From the NCBI GenBank assembly GCA_947629705.1, contig CANREN010000001.1, forward strand, positions 1 through 64,000: a DNA stretch of 64,000 bases. The letters are read 5' to 3'. Numbering within the stretch: position 1 is the stretch's first letter; each line of letters begins with the position of its first letter. Shown in pieces: positions 5,456-26,875 of the stretch. The stretch is from an uncultured Alistipes sp. Its GTDB lineage: Bacteria > Bacteroidota > Bacteroidia > Bacteroidales > Rikenellaceae. The position numbers and the translations under genes are program-made. Under the pieces are notes generated by a model, which worked only from the letters and a program-made list of their open reading frames with translations, searched no databases and was not told where the DNA came from.

Positions 5456-7117
5456 TTATAATGCAAATAGAATGAATATTTGAGCCGTCAGCACACGCAG
5501 GAACATGACGACCGGATAGACCGTCGAATAACCTACGGCCGGCATGTCGTTTCCAGCCGTCGCATTGGCATAGGCCAGTGCGGGCGGGTCGGTCGTCGAG
5601 CCGGCGATCAATCCAATTAGCGTATAATAGTTCATTTTCAGCCAGATACGGGCGACCGTCGCCACGAGCAGGATCGGCACGACCGTAATGATGAATCCAT
5701 AACCGATCCAGCGGTAGCCTCCGTTGGCGATGGTGTCGATGAATCCGTTGCCGGCGCCGATGCCTACGGCCGCCAAGAAGAGCGCGATTCCCAATTCGCG
5801 CAGCATCAGATTGGCGCTCATGGTCGTATAGGTAACCAAATGGAAGTGCGTTCCGAAACGGCCGATCAGGATGGCGACGATCAATGGGCCTCCGGCGAGA
5901 CCCAATTTCACGGGTTGGGGTACGTTCATCAACGGAATGGAGCCCAAGAGCACGCCCAAGGCGATTCCGACGAACAGGGTAATCAAATTGGGCTGTCGCA
6001 GTTTTTTGAGCGAGTTGCCCAATACGTCGGCCGCCCGTTCCACCGCCTGGGCGGGGCCTACGACCATCACGCGGTCGCCGACCTGGAGTTCCAGCCCCTG
6101 GTAAGGGATCAGATCGACCCCTGCACGATTCACGCGCGTAATGTTGATGCCGTACTTGGTGCGAAGCCGCAGGTCGGAGAACTTTTTGCCGTTGATCGAC
6201 GATTTGGTAATCAGGATGCGGCGCGAAACCAGATCCGTCTGCGACGTGTGGCAGCTCCACTCTTCATCGGACATCTCCGCGCGGCGGCCGAGGAACGCGA
6301 CGATCGCCTCGATGTCTTCGGCCTGGCAGATGACCCGAAGACGGTCGCCTTGACGCACGATGCTGTCGCTGTCGGCCATGCCGATCGTCCCGTCGTGGCA
6401 GATGCGCGAGATCACGAATTGCCGGTTGACCAACTGGCGCAGGTTCTCGATCGTGTAGCCGTTGAGCATCCGGTTGGTGAATTCGACGGAGATTTTTTCG
6501 GCGAGTTTGTGTTCGTTGGAGAGACGGGCCAGCTCTTCGTCCTCCTTTTCGAACCGCACGCGGAAGGCGTAACGGATGAAGATCATGGAGAGGATGATGC
6601 CCACGACGCCCAACGGATAGGCTGCGGCGTAACCCAAGGCGATGGTTTCATCCGCCTGTCCGGCCGCATCGGTGAAGGCCTGCTGCGCTGCACCCAGCCC
6701 GGGGGTGTTCGTTACCGCACCCGAAAGAATGCCGACCATCGTCGGGATCGGGGTGCCGGTCGCTATGTGAAGCATGTAGGCGGTCGCCACGCCCGTGAGC
6801 ACGATGGCCGTCGCACAGGCCACGAGGGTCATGCCTCCGTGTTTGAACGACGAGAAGAAGCTGGGCCCCACCTGCAATCCGATGGAAAAGACGAACAGAA
6901 TCAATCCGAACTCCTGGACGAAGTGCCGGATGTCGTCGTCGACCGTCATGCCGAAATGGCTGCATACGATGCCGACGAAAAGAATCCAGGTGATGCCGAG
7001 CGAGATTCCTTTGACCTTGATTTTGCCGAGCAGAATGCCCAGCGTGATGACCAAGGCGAACGTGATGACGGCGTGCGCGATTCCTCCGCCGAAAAACAGA
7101 TCGTAGAGCCAATTCAT
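5456..7117 (-). CDS. Putative transporter, AspT/YidE/YbjL family with TrkA-C domains
   Basis: Two hydrophobic halves (FSIGLQVGPSFFSSFKHGG; LGLAGGPLIVAILIGRFG) flanking two RCK_C/TrkA-C-like segments. Confidence 0.88.
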   Translation of the reverse strand: MNWLYDLFFGGGIAHAVITFALVITLGILLGKIKVKGISLGITWILFVGIVCSHFGMTVDDDIRHFVQEFGLILFVFSIGLQVGPSFFSSFKHGGMTLVACATAIVLTGVATAYMLHIATGTPIPTMVGILSGAVTNTPGLGAAQQAFTDAAGQADETIALGYAAAYPLGVVGIILSMIFIRYAFRVRFEKEDEELARLSNEHKLAEKISVEFTNRMLNGYTIENLRQLVNRQFVISRICHDGTIGMADSDSIVRQGDRLRVICQAEDIEAIVAFLGRRAEMSDEEWSCHTSQTDLVSRRILITKSSINGKKFSDLRLRTKYGINITRVNRAGVDLIPYQGLELQVGDRVMVVGPAQAVERAADVLGNSLKKLRQPNLITLFVGIALGVLLGSIPLMNVPQPVKLGLAGGPLIVAILIGRFGTHFHLVTYTTMSANLMLRELGIALFLAAVGIGAGNGFIDTIANGGYRWIGYGFIITVVPILLVATVARIWLKMNYYTLIGLIAGSTTDPPALAYANATAGNDMPAVGYSTVYPVVMFLRVLTAQIFILFAL

Positions 7118-7223
7118 GTTGTTGCGGGTCGATTTGACGGTTCAGCGCACAAAAGTAGTATATTTTTAAGAAAATTAAAAATCGGTGCGGCGATTTTTCG
7201 GCCGACAGGCGATTCCGGCGTCG

Positions 7224-24877: not shown

Positions 24878-25759
24878 TTACAAGGTCGATTTCGATTCGA
24901 CGTCGGCTTCGGCATCCACCTTTTTAATCAATCCCTGAAGCACCGTGCCCGGGCCGAGCTCGGAGAACACGGCGATACCGTCGGCGAGCATGTTGCGCAC
25001 AATGTAGGTCCAGCGCACCGGAGCCGTCAGCTGGGCGATCAGATTGGCCTTGATCGCTGCGGGATCGGTATAGGGTTTTGCATCCGCATTCTGGTAGATG
25101 GGGCAGATCGGGGTTTGGAACGGTGCATCATCGATGGCTTTCTCCAACTCCTGTTTTGCCGGCTCCATCAGCGGCGAGTGGAATGCGCCGCCGACCGGCA
25201 GACGCAATGCACGGCGGGCGCCGGCGGCTTTGGCTTTTTCACAGGCGGCATCGACGGCATCGACGGCACCCGAAATCACGAGCTGTCCCGGGCAGTTGTA
25301 GTTGGCTGCGACGACGACGCCTTCGGTCGATGCGCAAATCTCCTCGACCGTTTGGTCGTCTAATCCGAGAATGGCTGCCATCGTTCCAGGATGGGCTTCG
25401 CAGGCGTCCTGCATGGCCTGGGCACGTTTCGATACGAGTTTCAGACCGTCTTCGAACGAGAGGGCACCGGCAACGACCAATGCCGAAAATTCACCCAACG
25501 AGTGTCCGGCGACGGCATCGGGCTTTACGCCGAGCGCCTTGGCCATGATGACCGAGTGGAGGAATACGGCGGGTTGCGTAACTTTGGTCTGCTTCAACTC
25601 GTCGGGCGTACCGGCGAACATAATGTCCGTGATGCGGAATCCGAGAATCTCGTTGGCCTGTTCGAAAAGCTCTTTGGCGGCAGGCAGGTGGTCGTAGAGG
25701 TCTTTGCCCATCCCGACGGCTTGGGCGCCCTGACCCGGGAAAACGTATGCGTGTTTCAT
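24878..25759 (-). CDS. fabD: Malonyl-CoA:ACP transacylase
   Basis: MKHAYVFPGQGAQAVGMGKDLYD...VAGHSLGEFSALVVAGALSFEDGLKLVSKRAQAMQ...LPVGGAFHSPLMEPA. Confidence 0.96.
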   Translation of the reverse strand: MKHAYVFPGQGAQAVGMGKDLYDHLPAAKELFEQANEILGFRITDIMFAGTPDELKQTKVTQPAVFLHSVIMAKALGVKPDAVAGHSLGEFSALVVAGALSFEDGLKLVSKRAQAMQDACEAHPGTMAAILGLDDQTVEEICASTEGVVVAANYNCPGQLVISGAVDAVDAACEKAKAAGARRALRLPVGGAFHSPLMEPAKQELEKAIDDAPFQTPICPIYQNADAKPYTDPAAIKANLIAQLTAPVRWTYIVRNMLADGIAVFSELGPGTVLQGLIKKVDAEADVESKSTL

Positions 25760-25825
25760 CTTCGACTGCATTTTTTTGGTTTGCGCTGCAAAGATACGAA
25801 TTTATTTTTATTCCGTAACTTCGCA

Positions 25826-26000
25826 TTGCAATGGTTCGCAAAGGAGGTCCGCGTCCGGCGCGATTGAATGGGAATGCCGTGTGAATCGGCAGCAGTTCCC
25901 GCTGCTGTAAGTCCCTGCGTGTTCCGCAACACTCTATGAGCCACTGGTCTATGACCGGGAAGGCGTTGCGGACGGGACAAGCCAGAAGACCTGCCTTGCA
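25826..26000 (+). promoter_or_regulatory. Cobalamin (AdoCbl) riboswitch aptamer
   Basis: Conserved blocks in order: GGGAATGCCGTGTGAATCGGCAGCAGTTCCCGCTGCTGTAAGTCCC, GAGCCACTGG, ACCGGGAAGGCG, and B12-box GCCAGAAGACCTGCC; P1 ends TTGCA(A)/TTGCA close the structure. Confidence 0.93.
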
Positions 26001-26027
26001 TCTTCCAATTCCGGAAGAATCTTTTTT
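26001..26027 (+). terminator. Putative expression-platform terminator of the cobalamin riboswitch
   Basis: TCTTCC-aattcc-GGAAGA then atcTTTTTT, immediately 3' of P1. Confidence 0.6.
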
Positions 26028-26214
26028 CGAGGCCTCTGCGGAGAACGGAGCATCGGTCGAGTTTTTTTCAGTACGATTGTCTGAAGAAGATTATCCGTAT
26101 AGGGCGAATGCTCCAGCCGCCGAAGAACGATTCGATTCCGGAAAGGAACCCACCTTTTGCAGAATCATTCGGGCTGTCGGTGCCATAAGGAGATTAGTTG
26201 TTCGCAGTCCGAAA

Positions 26215-26253
26215 AAAGCCCCCGAAAACCTGCCTGTTTTCGAGGGCTTTTAT
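26215..26253. terminator. Bidirectional-looking intrinsic terminator
   Basis: AAAAGCCCCCGAAAAC-ctgcct-GTTTTCGAGGGCTTTT. Confidence 0.85.
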
Positions 26254-26287
26254 TAACTGGGTCGTGGTTCTATTAAAACAATACCGA

Positions 26288-26875
26288 TTAGGGCAGCCAT
26301 TCGACAATGCCTTCGGCCGGATGCGCCGCCCGCCAAGCCTCGAACTCCTCCCAGGTGCGTATGCCGTCCCGTATGACCGCTTGATAATATTCGATTCCCA
26401 TGATTTTCAGCTCGTCGGGCGTCTCGAATTTCAGCCGCAGGATGGCTTCGCGCCGTTCGTCGGTCAACGCCGCGGCGATGCGGTCGGCCACCTGCTCGAA
26501 ATAGCCGTCGTATCGCGATCCGCGAAGGATGTGGATCAAGTCGATTTGCCACAATTCGTTATCCTCGTCCCGATACCATGCGTGCCATTCGACGCAGGCT
26601 TCGTCGGTGTCGAGCGAATTGCCGAACGCGATCCGTTCGATTCCCGGGCAGGAGGCGAGCCGCCCCATGACTTCGAAATCCGACCGGATGTCGATGCGGT
26701 CGGAATAGATATGGAAGTCCAGATCCCGATGCTTGGCCAACAGCCCCATGCGCAGGGAACCGACCTGCCGGACTTCGGCGCCGATGCTTTGCCAAAGGCG
26801 TTGCAAGTCGAGTGCGGCGATAATTTGGTGGGCGCGGCGGGTGTTTTCCGCCGCGCGTTCCGCACAGGCGCCCAT
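26288..26875 (-). CDS. Nucleotidyltransferase-fold protein, uncharacterised
   Basis: GSLRMGLLAKHRDLDFHIYS fits the minimal hG[GS]..DhDh NTase signature, with a later acidic candidate in LWQIDLIHIL; length ~195 aa. Confidence 0.6.
   Translation of the reverse strand: MGACAERAAENTRRAHQIIAALDLQRLWQSIGAEVRQVGSLRMGLLAKHRDLDFHIYSDRIDIRSDFEVMGRLASCPGIERIAFGNSLDTDEACVEWHAWYRDEDNELWQIDLIHILRGSRYDGYFEQVADRIAAALTDERREAILRLKFETPDELKIMGIEYYQAVIRDGIRTWEEFEAWRAAHPAEGIVEWLP

Follow-up and report, generated by a model that had tools for sequence, protein, structure and literature searches.

The riboswitch leader and its promoter

The window, the whole stretch of 64,000 nucleotides analysed here, contains one cobalamin riboswitch, placed on the plus strand between two genes of the minus strand. 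On its left is the divergent fabD (malonyl-CoA-ACP transacylase, Pfam Acyl_transf_1, 24878-25771), which anchors the orthology of the locus by its conserved synteny; on its right is a convergent nucleotidyltransferase-like gene of 195 residues (26288-26875) with a weak Pfam NTP_transf_2 match below the cut-off. The aptamer (25815-26012; RF00174, 95.3 bits, E 1.8e-22 by cmscan) is complete, its alignment spanning the full model (1-189), and carries the B12 box GCCAGAAGACCTGCC at 25981-25995. The initial annotation had described a complete AdoCbl aptamer with a B12 box, and the Infernal/Rfam scan proposed with it bears this out by a full-length match well above the gathering score of 31.5. The riboswitch may be expected to bind a corrinoid and to act by repression.

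Between the aptamer and P13 lies a short hairpin with a T-run (TCTTCC-AATTCC-GGAAGA, 26001-26027, plus strand), located by pattern scan where a terminator-like hairpin had been annotated; a region of equal size would contain about 0.9 such sites by chance. Its T-run is present in five of six closely aligned relatives and degenerate in the remaining one, L065. As this last locus (7092-7180, reverse-complement coordinates) has an intact L13 and the DUF4465 gene described below, the small hairpin is not essential to the arrangement.

The riboswitch is not over where the aptamer ends at 26012: it extends to 26055 with an intact P13/L13 hairpin (26028-26055, plus strand), which is kept in the orthologues, and continuous homology with the relatives stops at its end. 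The L13 loop GCGGAGAA can pair with L5 UUCCCGC (-9.0 kcal/mol), the complementarity of a kissing loop, and the L5-L13 kissing loop is an established part of the cobalamin riboswitch class (PMC10653944). The hairpin was also considered as a novel motif and rejected as such, being the usual P13/L13 hairpin; similar ones recur 3' of other cobalamin aptamers of these bacteria. Directly 3' of P13 is a run of seven T (26062-26068), missing at this place in most aligned relatives, which may give P13 itself the character of a terminator in this species.

The candidate promoter -7 box, TAACTTCG (25816-25823, plus strand), is altered from TAnnTTTG, the Bacteroides consensus (PMC7366714). The seven relatives with the orthologous riboswitch carry TAACTTTG, TATCTTTG or TATATTTG as their -7 box, and the other two riboswitches of the window's genome are preceded by TATCTTTG or TACATTTG. 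Upstream of genes in this genome TAnnTTTG is strongly enriched (79 in sense orientation versus 9 in reversed sequence) and TAnnTTCG hardly so (20 versus 11). Alignment with six relatives and the more divergent L074 places a 6-bp insertion directly upstream of the box (about 25810-25815) in the window only. With the altered box and this insertion the promoter looks decayed or weak.

A downstream regulated gene is usual for the cobalamin riboswitch class of RNA, without being defining for it. On the same strand no gene was found in 26012-26290, either in the list of open reading frames or by Pfam. The genome of the window (G000; 1.59 Mb, about 95% complete, 26 contigs) has two further cobalamin riboswitches, both in ordinary contexts: from reading of the translations, a TonB receptor with CbiK-like and cobalamin genes lies behind one, and behind the other come an anaerobic ribonucleotide reductase and the activase of this enzyme. 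Among 46 cobalamin riboswitch loci, the window included, only the window has no assignable following gene, according to an automated and rough count in which some reading frames are unconfirmed as genes. The automated scan had returned L182 as a second orphan, which was rejected because nrdD follows in a frame missed by the scan. In three congeners the gene behind a cobalamin riboswitch encodes a conserved protein, 121-142 residues long, that begins with M(K/N)ILLYG(I/V)PA (L181 1769-2137; L186 610-975, reverse-complement coordinates; L014 1887-2315, plus strand), of which a 60-residue fragment gave no Pfam match.

The orthologous locus and the missing lipoprotein gene

A DNA search of 60 relatives led to three congeners (G013, G023 and G032) that are homologous to the window from the fabD side across the aptamer as far as position 26055 and no further. 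A scan of GTDB genomes with FabD added L065, L066, L068 and the more divergent L074 to these; the G023 and G032 loci are referred to as L034 and L035. All seven relatives have the riboswitch at the same site, divergent from fabD, with a lipoprotein gene behind it. Pfam assigns the product to DUF4465 in six (L035, L036, L065, L066, L068 and L074) and to DUF5074 in L034. BtuJ1 and BtuJ2 of B. thetaiotaomicron, which bind B12 tightly and are encoded in loci under riboswitch control, belong to DUF4465 (PMC12751083, PMC13398666), and the DUF5074 protein matches the BtuG chains of the solved structures 8blw and 8p97. The genes in L034 (11412-12500, minus strand) and L035 (12373-13245, minus strand) follow the same orthologous riboswitch and have signal-peptide regions 69% identical over 36 residues; one riboswitch is thus found with a swapped domain or gene, a DUF5074 protein in G023 and a DUF4465 protein in G032.

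Neither DUF4465 nor DUF5074 was found elsewhere in the window's genome, both searches being positive in control genomes. The nagB-type gene located downstream in G013, G023 and G032 (3/3) is likewise absent from it. Since the assembly is about 95% complete, a relocated lipoprotein gene could sit in the missing part. In the FabD tree the window groups with moderate support among the riboswitch-bearing relatives, which argues for loss of the gene and not for its original absence. Loss of the regulated gene, one of the two explanations offered by the initial annotation, is hence well supported. The expectation that the target had been btuB or a cob gene gives way to a BtuJ-family DUF4465 or BtuG-like DUF5074 lipoprotein, and the comparison of relatives, suggested as a search for a lost gene or a conserved RNA, yielded the gene and no RNA match past 26055.

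A trace of the lost regulation appears to be left. In five of the seven relatives (L034, L035, L066, L068 and L074) the start codon is immediately preceded by a strong intrinsic terminator, which folds at -13 to -21 kcal/mol and has a U-tract; none was found there in L036 and L065. The window retains only the 5' arm of this terminator, ATTCGATTCCGGA (26130-26142, plus strand), while the 3' arm, the U-tract and the gene are missing. The arm matches L066 over 14 bases, which was reached by 0/200 shuffles for the L066 locus and by 1/1,400 shuffle comparisons across all seven loci; L034, L035 and L068 align at the same place, individually without significance. As the match is followed by divergence, the sequence suggests that the regulated terminator and the gene were most likely removed together. 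A possible antiterminator, in which the 3' strand of P13 would pair with the 5' arm of the terminator, gave duplexes better than shuffled sequence in the window alone: 2.6% of shuffles were as good there, against 19-56% for the relatives.

Synteny with the relatives breaks here as well. To the left, the window (with GNAT, ROK repressor and fabD) matches contig 51 of G023; to the right, a lysA-like gene and the genes beyond match contig 50 of G023, contig 21 of G013 and contig 6 of G002. As the two sides lie on separate contigs in the relatives, two blocks are joined at the riboswitch. Of 40 relatives searched, only three have the nucleotidyltransferase-like gene that stands between both blocks, and in none of them does it lie at a related position. 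In a draft genome of this kind, such a junction of sequences from different contigs of the relatives might be an assembly artefact, the true genome keeping the lipoprotein gene beside the riboswitch. We consider this very unlikely, as the junction lies inside a 249-kb contig, the lipoprotein families and the nagB-type neighbour were not found anywhere in the genome, and the window-specific change of the -7 box fits a real loss.

The sequence downstream of the leader

After 26055 no BLAST match was obtained among 36 congeners, with the exception of the terminator-arm remnant, seen by closer comparison. The junction region from the truncated leader towards the 3' end of the convergent gene (26143-26213) has no detectable homologue in congeners or in the loci of the relatives, and for 26143-26290 no homologue adjoining the nucleotidyltransferase genes of relatives was found. 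No conserved RNA or small open reading frame was detected downstream of the riboswitch. In agreement with the initial annotation, which saw no convincing reading frame here, no frame within 26000-26215 is matched by Pfam, and those that begin after the aptamer are too short to be credible.

A strong hairpin at 26214-26251 forms a bidirectional terminator when both strands are folded: -30.1 kcal/mol (z -5.5) on the minus strand, and -24.6 kcal/mol (z -3.4) with a shorter U-tract on the plus strand. As the minus strand gives the better terminator of the two, the hairpin is probably that of the convergent gene. The hairpin previously placed at 26215-26253 is real, but is more likely to end the transcript of that gene than one from the riboswitch.

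These data bear on the second explanation offered earlier, that the switch controls a short B12-dependent non-coding RNA. In a developed form, selection would have retained the leader after the gene loss as an sRNA that responds to B12 and acts in trans, a counterpart of EutX that arose independently in Bacteroidota, with a short form ending near 26027 in the presence of B12 and a long form ending at 26251 in its absence. The intact aptamer and L13, the T-run hairpin after the aptamer and a strong hairpin able to end the long form would suit such an RNA. However, the T-run hairpin is found equally in relatives which possess the gene, the sequence of the long form past 26055 has no conserved counterpart, the -7 box is altered, the distal terminator is better on the minus strand and probably that of the opposite gene, and the loss of the target gene already explains the gene-less state. 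The proposal thus finds no positive support, and we regard it as very unlikely. A search of the genome for an EutV/ANTAR partner gave no match, and control genomes likewise gave none.

Two further possibilities are of very low probability. A transcript running against the convergent gene could act on the nucleotidyltransferase mRNA as an antisense RNA under B12 control, given that this gene starts 276 bases past the aptamer end and that the sole barrier on the plus strand is a hairpin with the shorter U-tract; this hairpin is nevertheless stable and does have a U-tract, the convergent arrangement is found in the window alone and the promoter looks weak, so that we give this hardly any credence. 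Equally implausible is a short overlooked protein, for which one frame (25936-26256) is open over 106 codons but begins within the aptamer, is not matched by Pfam and is without any relative past 26055.

A riboswitch probably orphaned by gene loss

The locus is very probably an ordinary cobalamin riboswitch leader orphaned by loss of its target gene; what stands there is most likely the remnant of that arrangement and not a novel regulatory RNA. In the ancestor, the leader would have stood divergent from fabD and before one gene for an outer-membrane B12-scavenging lipoprotein, either BtuJ/DUF4465 or BtuG-like DUF5074. In the relatives, bound cobalamin would let L5 kiss L13 and stabilise P13, whereupon the intrinsic terminator that adjoins the start codon would form and switch the gene off; without B12 the gene would be read. 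That B12 favours termination would follow by analogy with the metE riboswitch of Priestia megaterium. In the lineage of the window, a deletion or rearrangement has probably cut the leader inside this terminator, at about 26142, and joined it to an unrelated block comprising the nucleotidyltransferase and then the lysA-like gene. What is left now would be a relic, or at most the source of a functionless RNA of about 420 nt.

The sample, which contained no closely related strain, limits the dating of the loss. No decay of the aptamer is visible, L13 is intact and a relative-rate comparison of the leader with fabD gave no clear acceleration; decay of the RNA itself is thus not demonstrated. An undecayed aptamer fits a recent loss, and selection is also possible.

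Compared to known systems, the window shares the aptamer, P13/L13, the position divergent from fabD and leader sequence with the RF00174 riboswitches which precede BtuJ/DUF4465 or BtuG-like genes in Bacteroidota, and differs from them in lacking both the gene under control and the terminator's 3' half. With the metE corrinoid riboswitch of P. megaterium (PMC10653944) it has in common the L5-L13 kissing loop and, in its relatives, a terminator downstream of P13, but the window has lost this terminator. The likeness to the sRNAs EutX and Rli55 (PMC5821096) consists of a cobalamin aptamer with no coding gene on the same stretch; unlike these, the window has no conserved RNA downstream, and its gene-less state is explained by loss relative to its orthologues. 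A literature search on vestigial riboswitches gave nothing specific.

The observation holds, yet it is an ordinary one: the riboswitch belongs to a known class and has lost its target. Should the RNA prove active, it would be an uncommon case of an sRNA derived from a riboswitch. The locus illustrates how what looks like an orphan riboswitch may be the scar of a gene loss, for which a handful of relatives is enough to name the lost target and the cut site. For the organism, the locus suggests that in this reduced Alistipes-like genome a component of B12 scavenging is apparently gone.
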